Source: Prauserella halophila (GTDB lineage: Bacteria > Actinomycetota > Actinomycetes > Mycobacteriales > Pseudonocardiaceae). From it: 64,000 nucleotides of DNA. The position numbers and the translations under genes are program-made. Numbering within the stretch: the first letter of the stretch is position 1; every line of letters begins with the position of its first letter. The notes beneath the pieces were generated by a model. It had not been told where the DNA came from. It did no database searches and saw only the letters and a program-made list of their open reading frames with translations. Below, piece after piece: positions 9,169-25,255 of this stretch. The stretch is from the NCBI RefSeq assembly GCF_024171895.1, contig NZ_JAMTCQ010000009.1:37318-101317 (forward strand). The letters are read 5' to 3'.

Positions 9169-10102
9169 GACCGCGAGCATCGAGGTGCATACTCACCCCT
9201 CTTTCGGGTACTCGTGTCTCAGTTCGATAACAGAACAGCGTTTTCGGGCATCTTCTGGCCCGCTCGAGCGTCCTTGAGGGTGAAGACCCTTGAAGAGCAG
9301 GGTGGGTTTCGTGCGATTCTGAAGGAGTCGGCGAGTCTCGCGTCATGAGACTCCGGAACACGAGTCCCGCTCACGAACAGCTGAAGACGAGTTTCGTGCC
9401 CCGGCACTAAGTGCAGTGCTTGACACGTGCGGTGCCGCGACCCGCAGGGCGCGGGGCTCGTCGGACGCGAGCATTCAACTACATAGTCGGTTTCCTCGCT
9501 TCGTAGCGGGTACTCGGTAACCGAGAGGTGCGGCATCGAGCGGTGTGATCATCGCCGGGTTCGGTGACCAGGTCTCGGTGGCACGAGCACCAGCGCTGCT
9601 GGAGGCGAACACAATCTCCCTCCGGGATTCGGGTCGGGGCCTTTCAACCGGAGGGCGGGGAGCGTGGGCTGTCGGGGGATGGTCCACGCACAGGCAAAGG
9701 GCCGGTGCGCCACGTCGGGGGTGGCGCCCGGCCCTTTGTCATGTCTTGATTTTCTGTTGTGCCTCGAGTCGTTGCCGTGCTCCGACTCGGACTCGCGGTC
9801 CGGCTCGCGGCGTCCTGCCGATCGCGGCGCTGAACGGGATCGCGGTTCGGACGGCCACGGTGTCGGGCAGCCGCGATATCGGACAGCCGCAGCGTCGACC
9901 AGTTGCGGTGTCGGACAGCTGCAGCGTGCCGGAAACGGCATCCGCATGTCCTGCACGTCCTGCGGTGCGGCCTCGGTGGGGCCGCACCCGCCCGGGAGAT
10001 CGGATCCCGGATGTCGCCTGTCTCCGGAAGCGTCGCCGGAGCCGTCGACCGGTCATGCGGGAATTGTGGGACGGCGCCCGGACTCGGACGCCGAATTCCC
10101 GG
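9169..10102. other. 934-bp gene-free stretch between MFS and crp genes
   Basis: No credible coding sequence is seen on either strand; open frames here have shadow-like composition. The first 330 bases are clearly less GC-rich than the surrounding genes. A -10-like TACATA near 9489 and the very strong hairpin ending at 9737 could bound a transcript of about 250 bases on the plus strand. From 9860 to 9930 short words of the type GTGTCGGACAGC recur. Otherwise I see nothing. Confidence 0.5.
9696..9737 (+). terminator. 17-bp stem hairpin in gene-free region (sRNA terminator candidate)
   Basis: AAAGGGCCGG at 9696-9705 pairs with CCGGCCCTTT at 9728-9737, and after a one-base bulge GCGCCAC pairs with GTGGCGC around a 7-base loop. 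It is followed on the plus strand by a T-rich stretch (TTTGTCATGTCTTGATTTTC). A second weaker stem just upstream (GCGTGG with CCACGC, 9663-9689) has a loop with the same GTCGGGG word. No gene ends here, so a small RNA is the simplest explanation. Confidence 0.5.
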
Positions 10103-10777
10103 TCAGCGGGCGCGTCGCGCGAGCCGTTCCGGATCGAGGATCAGCACGCTCTTGCCTTCGAGTCGCAGCCAGCCGCGGTGTGCGAAGTCGGCGAGTGCCT
10201 TGTTCACCGTCTCCCGCGAGGCGCCGACGAACTGGGCGATCTCCTCCTGCGTCAGGTCGTGCGTGACCCGCAGCAGGCCGGCTTCCTGGCTGCCGAACCG
10301 CTGGGCGAGCTGCAGCAGCGCGCGGGCGACACGGCCGGGAACGTCCGTGAAGATGAGTTCGGCGACCATGTTGTTCGTGCGTCGCAGCCGGCGCGCGACC
10401 ACGCGGAGCAGCTGCTCGGCGATCTCGGGACGCGTGGAGATCCACTGCCGTAGCGCGGCGCGGTCCATCGTCACGGTGCTGACCTCGGTCACGGTCGTCG
10501 CCGTCGAGGTACGCGGTCCCGGGTCGAAGATCGACAGCTCGCCGAACATGTCCGACGGGCCCATGATCTGGAAGAGGTTCTCCCGGCCGTCGGCCGACTT
10601 GCGGCCGATCTTCACCTTGCCCGACTTGATGATGTAGAGCTTGTCGCCGGGCTCGCCCTCGTTGAAGATCACGTGGCCACGCGGAAGGTCCACGGTCTCC
10701 AGGGTCTGCGCGAGCGCTTCGGCCGCAGCCGGCTCCACGCCCTGGAAAATGCCCGCCCTGGCCAGGGTCTCGTCCAC
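10103..10777 (-). CDS. glxR: Crp/GlxR-type cAMP-responsive global regulator
   Basis: Regulator of 224 residues. An N-terminal cyclic-nucleotide-binding barrel has FGELSIFD at 78-85 and R89/T90 in the phosphate-binding cassette. A C-terminal winged helix ([21 protein letters not shown], 175-195) binds DNA. Length and sequence match GlxR of corynebacteria and Crp (Rv3676) of mycobacteria. GTG at 10777 is chosen because AAGGAGG lies eight bases upstream; the open frame continues further but without a comparable site. It lies next to the Rv3675-like and nth genes as in M. tuberculosis. Confidence 0.93.
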
Positions 10778-11147
10778 CTCGTGCCTCCTTTGAGAAGCGA
10801 CCATCGCACCCAAGACGGGTACGTGGCGCCGGTCACTACGTGCAGTGTAGGGCGTGCCCTCGAGATCGCTTCCCGGCTCGCCGATCCGCCGTAGCGACAC
10901 CCCGTCCTGGGTGACGTACACGGCAATCACCCGGCGCTGGGCGCTGCCTGACACAGCTCGTCGAGACCGTACGCGGACGATCTCCGACCCGAAAGTTTAA
11001 CCCCGGCGTAACGGCGGTGAACGACCACCTCCGGCCGGGCGGACCGTCATCACCCCGGGTGTCGCGGTGATTACCGGCAGGTCACGGCGCTTGCGCAGCG
11101 TGTCTCACCCGTATGGGCGGTATGTGGAGGATGCGCGGCAGCGAATC
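10778..11147. other. 370-bp region upstream of crp
   Basis: Holds the crp leader with its AAGGAGG ribosome binding site (about 10785-10791) and presumably its promoter. An AT-rich AGTTTAAC patch near 10992-11000 is the best -10 candidate on the minus strand. I do not see a convincing TGTGA-N6-TCACA Crp site. No gene is supported here. Confidence 0.4.
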
Positions 11148-20850: not shown

Positions 20851-21696
20851 TTGTCGAAGAAGAAGACCGCCGCGCTCGGCGCAGGCGTCCTGTCCGCCGC
20901 CCTCGTCGGCGGCGCCCTGCTCGCCCCGGCTGCGGGCGCCCAGACCGAGGACTCGGCTTTCGGCATCGCCGCCGACGGCCTGATCGACATCGCTCCCACG
21001 CCGTACGTCGAGGGTGAGGGCTCCGAGGAGGTCGTCGGCACCAACGTGGCGGGCCTGGCGGGCGCGACGGTGCTCAGCGCCGAGGCGTCCTCGAACTACG
21101 CCTACGCCGACGTGGCCAACCTCAGCGTCCTCCCCGGCGACATCGGCGGTATCCCGGGGATCGGCGAGCCGCTGGTTGCAGCAGAAGGCACGCTCAGCGC
21201 CACCTGTGACAACGGTGACCTCAGCTCGCAGATCACCGAACTGAGTGTCCTGGGCAACACGATCCCGATCGACAACCTCGCGCCGAACACGACGGCTGTG
21301 CCCGAGGCGCTCGAGGGCGTCGCCCAGATCACCCTGAACAAGCAGAGCGAGAACACCGTCACCGCGGTCAGCATCGAGCTGCTGCAAGGCGTGCCGGGCC
21401 TGTCGGACATCGCCGGGCAGACGATCGACATCGCGTCGGCCACCTGCACCGAGGGTGACGACGACGGCGACAACGGCGACGGCGACAACGGCGACGGCGA
21501 CAACGGCGACGGCGACAACGGCAACGGCGACAACGGCAACGGCGACGGCGACAACGGCAACGGCGACGGCGACAACGGCAACGGCGACGGCGACAACGGC
21601 GACGGTGACGGTGACGGCGACGGCGACCAGGCCGACGACAACGGTGACGCCCCGGCTCCGACCCCGCAGCCCGGCCACCTGGACGTGACCGGCTGA
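20851..21696 (+). CDS. Secreted choice-of-anchor-like protein with Gly-Asp-Asn repeat tail
   Basis: Protein of 281 residues with a Sec signal (KKKTAALGAGVLSAALVGGALLAPAAGA, cut near AGA-QT). The body (about 30-200) is beta-rich, with a probable disulfide (ATCDNGD and ATCTEGD), and resembles actinobacterial choice-of-anchor proteins. Residues about 205-265 are Asp/Gly/Asn repeats (GDGDNG type), calcium-binding in appearance but not RTX nonapeptides. No sorting motif or membrane anchor is seen. The start is TTG 20851 with GAAAGG upstream. It follows the transpeptidase gene by 88 bases. Confidence 0.7.
   Translation: MSKKKTAALGAGVLSAALVGGALLAPAAGAQTEDSAFGIAADGLIDIAPTPYVEGEGSEEVVGTNVAGLAGATVLSAEASSNYAYADVANLSVLPGDIGGIPGIGEPLVAAEGTLSATCDNGDLSSQITELSVLGNTIPIDNLAPNTTAVPEALEGVAQITLNKQSENTVTAVSIELLQGVPGLSDIAGQTIDIASATCTEGDDDGDNGDGDNGDGDNGDGDNGNGDNGNGDGDNGNGDGDNGNGDGDNGDGDGDGDGDQADDNGDAPAPTPQPGHLDVTG
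21465..21640 (+). repeat. 15-bp-based repeat coding for Gly/Asp/Asn tail
   Basis: Units of the type GGCGACAACGGCGAC recur about ten times, first with a 15-base period and then interrupted by 3- to 9-base shifts. Confidence 0.85.
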
Positions 21697-21815: not shown

Positions 21816-23798
21816 TCAGTCGTCCGAACCGGACGAGAGGCCCTGGGAGATCCGGTCCATCACGGTGCTGTCGGCGAGCGTGGTGACGTCGCCGACCTCA
21901 CGGTCCTCGGCGACGTCGCGCAGCAGGCGGCGCATGATCTTGCCCGACCGGGTCTTCGGCAGCTCCGGTACGACCATGATCTGCCGCGGCTTGGCGATCG
22001 GCCCGATCTCCTTCGTCACGTGGACCCGCAGCTCCTGGATCGTCTCGTCGCCGGCCTGTGCGGCGTCGCCCCGCAGGATCACGAACGCCACAATGCCCTG
22101 CCCCGTGGTCGCGTCGCTCGCACCGACCACCGCGGCCTCGGCCACCACCGGGTGCGACACGAGCGCCGATTCGACCTCCGTGGTGGAGATGCGGTGGCCG
22201 GAGACGTTCATGACGTCGTCGACCCGGCCGAGCAACCAGACGTCGCCGTCGTTGTCGTACTTGGCGCCGTCGCCTGCGAAGTAGTAACCCCGTTCTGCGA
22301 ACCGCGACCAGTACGTGTCCTTGAACCGCTCGTCGTCGCCCCAGATCCCCCGCAGCATTGCCGGCCAGGGTTTGTCCAGCACCAGGTAGCCGCCGCCACC
22401 CTTGCCGACCGGTTCGCCCGCGTCGTCGACGACCTTCGCCGAGATGCCCGGCAGCGGCTGCTGCGCCGAACCAGGCTTCGCGTGCGTCACGCCGGGCAGC
22501 GGCGAGATCATGATCGCGCCCGTCTCGGTCTGCCACCACGTGTCGACGATCGGGCAGTGGCCGCCGCCGATGTTCTCGCGGAACCACATCCACGCTTCGG
22601 GGTTGATCGGCTCACCCACCGAACCGAGCAGTCGCAGCGACGACAGGTCGTAGCCCGCCGGAATGTCGGCGCCCCACTTCATGAACGTGCGGATCAGCGT
22701 CGGTGCCGTGTAGTAGATCGACACCTTGTACTTCTGGACGATCTCCCAGTGCCGGCCCTCGTGCGGGGTGTTCGGCGTGCCCTCGTAGACGACCTGGGTG
22801 GCGCGGTTGGCCAGCGGGCCGTACACGATGTACGAGTGACCGGTGACCCAGCCGATGTCGGCGGTGCACCAGTAGACGTCCTCACCCGGTTTGTGGTCGA
22901 ACACGGCGTTGTGGGTGTAGGCCGCCTGTGTCAGGTACCCGCCCGAGGTGTGCAGGATGCCCTTCGGCTTACCCGTCGTGCCAGAGGTGTACAGGATGTA
23001 CAGGGGGTGCTCCGAGTCGAACGCCTCCGGCTCGTGCTCCGCGGGCTGGGAGCCGACCAGCTCGTCCCACCAGACGTCGCGGCCCTCGGTCCACGGGACG
23101 TCGTCGTCGAGGTCGCTGCCGGTCCTTCGGACGACGACGACCTTCTCGATGCTCTCCGCGCCCTCGAGCGCTTCGTCGACGTTCACCTTCATCGGCGCGG
23201 CCTTGCCCCGGCGGTACTGCCCGTCCGAGGTGATGACCACCTTGGCCGCGGCGTCGTCGACCCGCTGGCGCAGCGCGGTCGGCGAGAATCCGCCGAAGAC
23301 CACGCTGTGGAGCGCACCGATCCGGGCGCACGCCAGCATCGCGACGATCGCCTCCGGAATCATCTGTAGCTGGATCGCGACCCGGTCGCCCGCGGTGACG
23401 CCGAGCGACGTCAGCGCGTTCGCCGCCTTCGACACCTCGTCCTTGAGCTGGGTGTAGGTGATGTCCCGGGTGTCGCCCGGTTCGCCGACCCAGTGGATGG
23501 CCGTCTGGTCTCCGTGTCCGGCTTCGACGTGCCGGTCGACGCAGTTGTAGGCCACGTTCAGCTTGCCGCCGACGAACCACTTCGCGAACGGCGCGTCCGA
23601 CCAGTCCACGACCTGTGTCCACTTCGTGTCCCAGTGCAGGCGTTCGGCCTGCTTCGCCCAGAACGCCTCACGATCGGCGTCGGCCTCCGAGTACCAGTCC
23701 GCCGTCGCGTTGGCGGCCGCCGCGAAGTCCGGGCTCGGAGGGAAGCTCCGGCTCTCGGTCAACAGGTTGTCGAGTGCCGGCGACTGCTCTGTCGTCAT
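21816..23798 (-). CDS. acsA: Acetyl-coenzyme A synthetase (acetate--CoA ligase)
   Basis: ANL-superfamily enzyme of 660 residues. It shows the adenylation motifs [11 protein letters not shown] and DTWWQTETG, the hinge/A8 region [16 protein letters not shown], and the C-terminal lysine K620 in [10 protein letters not shown], the site of regulatory acetylation. It converts acetate, ATP and CoA to acetyl-CoA. AGGAGG lies nine bases before ATG 23798. It is divergent from the phosphoribosyltransferase gene and matches acs (Rv3667) in gene order. Confidence 0.96.
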
Positions 23799-24008: not shown

Positions 24009-24515
24009 GTGGCCGAGAGTGAGCCGGAGCGTGAGGTGCTCACATGGGAGCTGTTCGGGACGGCGAGCCGTGAGCTCGCCACGGCGGTGGCCGACAGCGG
24101 GTTCCGGCCCGATCTGATCCTGTCGATCGCACGCGGAGGCCTGTTCGTGGCGGGTGCGCTCGGGTATGCGCTCGACGTGAAGAACCTGCACGTGATGAAC
24201 GTCGAGTTCTACACGGGCGTCGACGAACGGTTGGACCTGCCGGTGATGTTGCCGCCGGTGCCGAACGCCGTCGACCTGGCAGGCGCGAGAGTGCTGGTGG
24301 CCGACGACGTCGCCGACACCGGTGCGACGCTGAAACTGGTGCGCGACTTCTGCGCCGACGAGGTGGCCGAGGTGCGCTGCGCCGTCGTGTACGAGAAGCC
24401 CGACTCGACGGTGGCATGCGATTACGTGTGGCGGCGGACCGACCGGTGGATCAACTTTCCGTGGTCGACCGAACCGCCCGTGGTGACGAGGGAAGGTCAG
24501 GTGCTGGACGCATGA
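24009..24515 (+). CDS. Type I phosphoribosyltransferase
   Basis: Protein of 168 residues. The PRPP loop [13 protein letters not shown] spans residues 95-107, and [16 protein letters not shown] holds the early phosphate-binding turn. It resembles xanthine/hypoxanthine-type phosphoribosyltransferases, but the hood that fixes base specificity is short and I cannot name the base. The start is GTG 24009. Its stop overlaps the start of the next gene (ATGA), so the two products are made together. Confidence 0.8.
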
Positions 24516-25255
24516 GTCAGGGTGCTGCTGAGAGTGATCCGCTCGCGCCACTCGTCGGGATCGACGGTGTCGCAGAGGCGGCGAAATCGGCTCAGGACGC
24601 GGTGTTCGCCGTGCACCGGTACGGCGTGAACCTGCGCGAGGGCTCGGCGACCGCCGCCGAGGCGTCGGTGCGGGCCGCGCGCGCGTCGGCAGGCGTCGAG
24701 GGCGTCGACCCGGAGATTCCCGACGAGGGCGAGGTGCGCGACCCGGTACTGGCGGGCGCGTTGCGGGTGGCGAAGGCCGGTGAATCGCTCCTGCCGACGT
24801 GGCGCCGCGCTCCGATGCAGGCGCTCGCCCGGGTGCACGTTCTCGCCGCGGCGGATCTGACGTCGGATTCCGACGCGCTGGGAAGGCCCGATCCGGCGGC
24901 GTCGCCACGGCTGGAGCTGCTCGGCCGGCTCGTGACGGGTGGGACGAAGGCGCCGGCGCCGGTGCTCACCGCCGTCGTCCACGGCGAACTGCTGGCGTTG
25001 CAGGCGTTCGGCACCGCCGACGGTGTCGTCGCGCGCGCGGCCGCGCGGTTGACGATGGTGGCGACCGGCCTCGATCCGAAATCGCTCACGGTGCCCGAGG
25101 TCGCCTGTTTCCGCAGGCAGGAACGGTATGCGGCGGCGGCCGAGGCGTTCGCCACCAGTGATCCGGACGGCGTGCGTGAGTGGTTGCTGTTCTGCTGCGC
25201 GGCGTTCGAGGCCGGGGCCACCGAAGCGCAGAGCATCGCCGACGCGGCGGCCTGA
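24512..25255 (+). CDS. Degenerate Fic-fold-like protein (often annotated oxidoreductase)
   Basis: Protein of 247 residues. The C-terminal half (about 150-245) follows the Fic-domain pattern: a helix ([18 protein letters not shown]), a loop, a helix ([12 protein letters not shown]), then [36 protein letters not shown], as in HRDEYYDAL...WLRFF of Fic enzymes. The HPFxDGNGR catalytic loop is replaced by [13 protein letters not shown] (163-175), so the catalytic His is Gln164. AMP transfer is therefore not expected. Coupled by ATGA to a phosphoribosyltransferase. The Fic link is my reading by eye. Confidence 0.6.

Follow-up and report, generated by a model that had tools for sequence, protein, structure and literature searches.

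Most work on Fic proteins concerns accessory toxins, effectors or AMP transferases, and in canonical class II Fic proteins a Glu of the inhibitory helix pairs with the last Arg of the catalytic loop. Fic/Doc groups with degenerate motifs are already known (PMC4454073, PMC5651007), as is a Fic annotation of the locus considered here. The subject of the present analysis is a Fic-like protein encoded in a 64,000-nucleotide stretch of the Prauserella halophila genome (contig NZ_JAMTCQ010000009.1, positions 37,318 to 101,317; the whole stretch is referred to as the window), where its gene follows one for a phosphoribosyltransferase (PRT). The overall results indicate that the gene probably encodes a pseudo-Fic, i.e. 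a protein that is unable to carry out Fic chemistry and acts by binding a partner or a ligand. From sequence we infer the inactivity strongly and the partner weakly.

As a single sequence the window protein has no match in Pfam, NCBIfam or PDB sequences, such that profiles were needed. Within a family set of 51 sequences (53 selected loci minus L052, which has no start, and L063, which was trimmed), PF02661 (Fic) was matched individually by 19 members, with a best E value of 1.5e-6, the window protein alone being unmatched. Among solved structures, the family profile matched Fic proteins (7cb8 at E 1.5e-9), and 12 of the 14 entries that it matched up to E 10 are Fic or adenylyltransferase entries. 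An hhalign comparison of the family with 16 canonical Fics brought the motif into register, at E 4.4e-10; the canonical sequences were chosen for an intact motif and were drawn from 30 Fic loci, with omission of 11 without the motif by pattern and of three shorter ones (L168, L169 and L172). The predicted structure of the window protein has the Fic fold, with a six-helix core and a loop between two central helices. These results, in which profile matches, the profile-profile comparison and the predicted fold all agree, support the first-pass annotation, which had proposed a Fic domain from the letters of the sequence and had suggested both the profile comparison and a fold prediction that might have returned an unrelated structure. 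The likeness had been placed in the C-terminal half; it is present there but extends over nearly the whole length. Computation thus shows that the protein carries a full class II-type Fic fold, and the Fic resemblance of the loop region is not due to chance. The DSSP string of the model contains no strand, and the flap β-hairpin, which serves in target docking, is therefore absent; in several other lineages of the class the flap region is longer. A scan of viral contigs gave 13 pattern matches and zero relatives of the Fic-like protein. No AvrB-type protein was among the 50 matches listed, which excludes nothing.

The loop is dismantled. In register with the canonical motif HxFx[DE]GNGRxxR, positions 1-12 of which correspond to residues 164-175, the window protein has Q164 in place of the catalytic His (position 1), T168 in place of Asp (position 5) and V172 in place of the first Arg (position 9), with F166 (position 3), G171 (position 8) and R175 (position 12) being kept. 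The degenerate loop had been recognised in the first reading of the sequence, which began it at L163; the in-register start is residue 164. The catalytic His is absent in all 80 homologues of the named-locus set, which comprises the 80 highest-ranking of 540 confirmed relatives, i.e. the nearest ones, some of them clipped at contig ends (a derived set omits three partial matches, L104, L132 and L158), and in all 49 class-level homologues, in which position 1 is Arg (36), Ala (6), Lys (2), Gly (2), Gln (2) or Glu (1). In the latter set position 9 is never Arg, whereas position 12 is Arg in 48 of the 49. Computation thus shows that the class members examined have lost three loop residues: the catalytic His, the acidic residue that binds the metal, and the first Arg.

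Nine residues are invariant in the class-level set (P101, H109, R125, P126, H157, F166, R179, D188 and Y206), where many polar positions show little or no variation. This conservation is consistent with an active variant, in which the loop no longer AMPylates but does other chemistry via a new conserved set of residues, e.g. R125, H157, E159, R175, R179 and D188. There are precedents of a kind: toxicity is reported for Campylobacter fetus Fic2, whose motif is degenerate but still contains the His (excerpts of PMC5651007), and possible other functions have been suggested for a Doc clade with a His to Gln exchange (excerpts of PMC4454073). Against this, loop positions 1 and 4-6 vary freely, a pattern unlike that of an active site; the model of the window protein lacks the flap; and visual comparison with the canonical consensus places H109, H157, F166 and Y206 at ordinary Fic positions. 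We therefore regard an alternative chemistry as improbable and prefer the pseudo-Fic reading.

The inhibitory-helix motif is retained. The family profile aligns residues 59-64 of the window protein, SAGVEG, with SSEIEN of SoFic, and among the 49 class-level homologues Ser59 is kept in 45 and Gly64 in 46; position 63 is Glu in 22, Asp in 13, Ser in 6, Ala in 6, Gln in 1 and Met in 1, i.e. acidic in 35. Because the inhibitory Glu and the last loop Arg are both present in the window protein, the inhibitory clamp on the loop may survive there. The inhibitory helix would then still hold the loop via its last Arg, giving a closed state, and a pseudo-Fic in such a state could serve as a scaffold or regulator.

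Homologues of the Fic-like gene occur in 59 of 60 relatives' genomes, with a single match in 57 of the 59. The ratio of nonsynonymous to synonymous substitution rates (dN/dS) against three Prauserella orthologues is approximately 0.07, 0.20 and 0.24, with dS near 0.8. The 247-residue frame is thus a real gene, and it is under purifying selection. The nearest named homologue, among the best 80 of 540 relatives, is that of P. rugosa, which is 90% identical in the Fic-like protein. A profile search of the class matched 113 of 148 genomes at E 0.001, with 102 below 1e-40; the remaining 11 matches are fragments or other Fic proteins. With a single protein as query, the phylum gave matches in 47 of 296 genomes, a count that takes in canonical or outer relatives. 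The gene is therefore near-universal among relatives and common in the class, without being shown to be universal in the phylum; inheritance is apparently vertical, usually with one copy per genome. In the order, 20 of the 31 genomes have matches to canonical PF02661 Fics; the window's own genome has none at E 0.001. A contig titled Bifidobacterium breve, from a metagenome-assembled genome (locus L143), carries a Fic-like gene 54% identical to that of the window near ssd and tadA; it looks mis-binned.

Relatives outside the class inform on how the active site was lost. The 20 outer-class loci, obtained from 25 same-phylum genomes outside the class that were matched by the single-protein query, encode longer proteins (about 360-480 residues as cut), whose loops include QPFEAANGRLAR and HPFDAANGRLAR; their C-terminal extension reads like a winged helix, for which no library match was confirmed. 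All seven of the 20 that were scanned pass the curated cut-off of the Pfam Fic model (PF02661). Position 1 of the loop is His in six, Gln in 12, Arg in one and Met in one; none of the 20 has an acidic residue at position 5, and all have both the first and the last Arg. In a tree, the family and the outer-class relatives are together split from the 16 canonical Fics by a 100/97 branch, and the Actinomycetes family lies on a single 100/99 branch; the canonical rows are long-branched and unsure in their inner order, nine rows have an odd make-up and 26 of the 84 inner branches are open. The Actinomycetes family represents the most advanced stage of a graded loss of the Fic active site. The outer-class loops, neighbours and tree together imply that loss of the acidic residue probably preceded that of the His and that the link to a HAD-IB family hydrolase gene is probably older than that to acs, the acetyl-CoA synthetase gene. 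A Fic fold that has been kept while its active site was removed by traceable steps provides a natural case for the study of non-catalytic Fic-fold function.

With respect to a partner, the HAD-IB gene adjoins the Fic-like relative in 19 of the 20 outer-class loci (18 by tblastn and L278 by clustering) and lies within 8 kb of the Fic-like gene in 14 of 20 class-level loci, whereas tblastn detected none of acs, ssd, tadA and the PRT gene in the 20 outer-class loci. Other genes are also found near the HAD and Fic-like genes in these outer-class loci (L270-L289), including those for proteins that we take to be a thioredoxin-domain protein (14 of 20), a UvrD-type helicase (12 of 20) and a nicotinate phosphoribosyltransferase-like protein (10 of 20). 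Since the HAD gene is the sole one of the five neighbours tested (acs, PRT, HAD, ssd and tadA) that is common to the outer classes and the Actinomycetes, it is the first candidate, and the adjacent HAD-IB phosphatase may, tentatively, have been the original partner. A more elaborate and more speculative proposal is that the HAD-IB and Fic-fold proteins form an ancient and hitherto unrecognised regulatory pair of actinobacteria, present across several classes and later placed beside the RNA polymerase-binding RNA Ms1 in Actinomycetes, in which the transferase activity was lost stepwise (the acidic residue, then the His, then the first Arg and the flap) and the Fic fold, now part of the core genome, would control the phosphatase as a ligand sensor or a partner subunit.

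Within the class, the more constant neighbour is acs, which we provisionally assign from its sequence together with the gene order around Rv3667. Of the 80 named loci, 79 have it upstream and on the opposite strand, the exception being L143, which is clipped 126 bases upstream; it is within 8 kb of the Fic-like gene in 15 of 20 class-level loci, and an acs-type cluster is present in 18 of 21 stretches, the window included. This constancy, along with the regulation of Bacillus subtilis Acs by a bound partner, AcuA (excerpts of PMC11910552 and PMC11255334), might suggest that the Fic-like protein regulates its divergent neighbour. However, the absence of detectable acs from all the outer-class loci makes the acs link look younger than the Fic-like protein, the whole acs-to-tad stretch is syntenic, such that the acs neighbourhood may be passive, and transporter-like genes lie between acs and the Fic-like gene in those loci of Mycobacterium and Tsukamurella that were inspected. 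Regulation of acetyl-CoA synthetase thus appears unlikely, and we rank that enzyme as a younger and second, doubtful, candidate partner. Both candidates can be tested.

The PRT is a type I phosphoribosyltransferase (PF00156 at E 7.3e-20; purine PRT 1vdm at E 7.4e-25), in which DDVADTGAT is presumably the phosphoribosyl pyrophosphate-binding motif. The first-pass annotation reported that the PRT and Fic-like genes overlap by ATGA, and both frames are indeed where they had been placed, with the overlap at 24512-24515. Its further proposal, that the two proteins form a functional pair, did not survive the survey of adjacency that it had itself called for. In the 12 named loci with the PRT, the Fic-like start nearest to the PRT stop, as chosen by script, lies three bases before the end of the PRT frame in seven, seven bases before it in three, and 14 or 35 bases after it in two, which makes co-translation likely in this clade. 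However, these 12, out of 80 named loci, are all Prauserella or Amycolatopsis. The PRT adjoins the Fic-like gene in 12 of the 30 nearest loci (L014, one of the 30, being cut too short upstream for a decision), and a related PRT (E below 1e-49) is present in 22 genomes, 10 of which carry it elsewhere, at 52 to 85% identity and beside varied genes. Other neighbours are found in Mycobacterium, in Lentzea and in the other classes: Lentzea loci have the Fic-like gene divergent from acs with the PRT absent, and in two Mycobacterium loci dpp-transporter-like genes lie upstream, ending 0 or 11 bases before the called Fic-like frame. A conserved partnership was accordingly rejected on synteny, and a functional pair is very improbable; the window PRT is probably co-transcribed with the Fic-like gene, yet stands outside the conserved system. 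In L210 and L211 a 52-53% identical PRT adjoins a gene that we take to be allantoinase-like, in keeping with a role in purine salvage.

Gene order relates the window gene to studied ones. In Mycobacterium tuberculosis, Ms1 lies between Rv3661 and Rv3662c, and 6C RNA between Rv3660c and Rv3661 (excerpts of PMC8628891). The Mycobacterium loci L142 and L150 have the order Fic-like gene, Ms1, HAD gene, 6C; among the seven loci searched, two of which (L238 and L243) are short, Ms1 reaches its curated score in L142 and L150 and 6C does so in five. In view of this order the window gene is likely, on the basis of position, the counterpart of Rv3662c and of SCO3559 of Streptomyces coelicolor, in a family that is present in nearly all relatives and about two-thirds of the class sample. 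SCO3559 flanks scr3559/Ms1 and is tabulated as a 'putative oxidoreductase' (excerpts of PMC8539372), which fits the remark in the first reading of the window that homologues are often so labelled. Ms1 was found across Actinobacteria via the neighbour label 'oxidoreductase' and its synonym 'Fic', a 'Fic/Doc' label for the Ms1 neighbour already being present in some annotations, and it is said that Fic 'also has oxidoreductase activity' (excerpts of PMC9130861); we see no basis for the latter statement.

Rv3662c has also been flagged as a putative toxin, in TASmania, through an InterPro signature only (excerpts of PMC6504116). That the Fic-like protein is the toxin of a toxin-antitoxin pair is scarcely credible: in the excerpted text of the same paper Rv3662c is not listed among the six of 11 genes that affected growth when expressed in M. 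smegmatis, the family is single-copy in nearly all relatives, no constant antitoxin-like neighbour was seen and the catalytic residues are lost. A toxin identity was thus rejected on the published growth test and the distribution. The labels 'oxidoreductase' and 'toxin' are misleading for so widely shared a gene, and we suggest that they be corrected. Other reports on Rv3662c, each available as excerpts, are that it might be under HigA1 regulation (PMC3968373), that it shows a fold change of 5.8 on whiB1 underexpression (PMC5741622) and that it is counted in a peptide permease operon, Rv3665c-Rv3662c (PMC2923189). In L150 the Fic-like gene (9932-10753, forward strand) ends approximately 40 bases from the convergent Ms1 (10794-11093, reverse strand), and reports on the Rv3662c transcript could, by analogy, be confounded by Ms1. 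A literature search, from whose reach subscription papers were excluded, found no description of the inactive loop of the family, the graded loss or the old HAD link.

Several observations weigh against a pseudo-Fic with a HAD partner. About a third of the class sample is without a clear member (46 of 148 genomes are not below E 1e-40), and the inhibitory Glu is not strict, being replaced by Ser or Ala in 12 and by Gln or Met in two of the 49 class-level homologues. The residues invariant in the class could, instead of a binding surface, make up a new active site. The HAD gene is downstream and convergent in 51 of the 80 named loci, and within 1.3 kb in 29, 23 named loci that extend 9.5 kb or more downstream have no HAD gene, and in the window 8 kb containing other genes separates the HAD and Fic-like genes; the outer-class loci, moreover, share further neighbours besides the HAD gene (14, 12 and 10 of 20). 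The other Fic-type candidate in the M. smegmatis growth test was Rv3641c, presumably a Fic protein. The non-toxicity of Rv3662c is weak evidence, as Rv3641c is likewise not listed as toxic (excerpts of PMC6504116).

The features of the window are collected in the Table.

Table. Features of the window around the Fic-like gene (positions are those of the window).
Feature	Coordinates	Strand	Remarks
Fic-fold protein without catalytic residues, 247 residues	24512..25255	+	ATG start; likely positional counterpart of Rv3662c and SCO3559
Dismantled catalytic loop, residues 164-175	25001..25036	+	in register with HxFx[DE]GNGRxxR
Class II inhibitory-helix motif SAGVEG, residues 59-64, (S/T)xxxE(G/N), retained	24686..24703	+	profile aligned to SoFic SSEIEN
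Purine-type PRT, 168 residues, clade-specific neighbour	24009..24515	+	GTG start
Acetyl-CoA synthetase (acs), presumed	21816..23798	-	transcribed away from the PRT/Fic-like pair; neighbour conserved in the class
Candidate Ms1 small RNA, RF02566	32836..33082	-	52.1 bits, E 1.1e-10; curated threshold 162
HAD-IB family hydrolase, TIGR01490	33254..34072	-	197.7 bits, cut-off 98.3
6C RNA, RF01066	34247..34317	+	47.0 bits, at curated threshold

The Ms1 candidate, the HAD-IB gene and the 6C RNA lie approximately 8 kb downstream of the PRT/Fic-like pair. The score of the Ms1 candidate is far under the curated threshold, yet the candidate is at the expected place, Ms1 and 6C flanking the HAD-IB gene. 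Beyond the 6C RNA are genes that resemble ssd and tadA. At 20851-21696 the window encodes a protein that looks secreted and has a long repeat of the GDGDNG type, and large open frames cover the same DNA on the opposite strand.

The family shares its fold type with class II-type Fics, such as SoFic (3eqx, 3zcn, 3zec), and with the M. marinum protein 7cb8. Unlike these, it lacks the catalytic His, the acidic residue, the first Arg and the C-terminal domain, and the window model has no flap hairpin; its occurrence, in nearly all relatives, is not sporadic. Doc clade D2 is similar in being a Fido group with a replaced catalytic His (by Gln), but it keeps the acidic residue and Arg (Qx[FY]x[DE][GV]NKR) and is usually a single-domain Doc (excerpts of PMC4454073), whereas in the present, class II-like family the acidic residue is gone even where the His remains. 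C. fetus Fic2 is likewise a bacterial protein with a degenerate Fic loop, yet its pattern is nearly the reverse, in that it keeps the His, exchange of which abolished toxicity, has lost the last Arg and has no inhibitory motif (excerpts of PMC5651007). AvrB, too, has a Fido fold without the Fic motif (excerpts of PMC4454073); unlike the present family, it retains the hairpin, and it acts as a type III effector.
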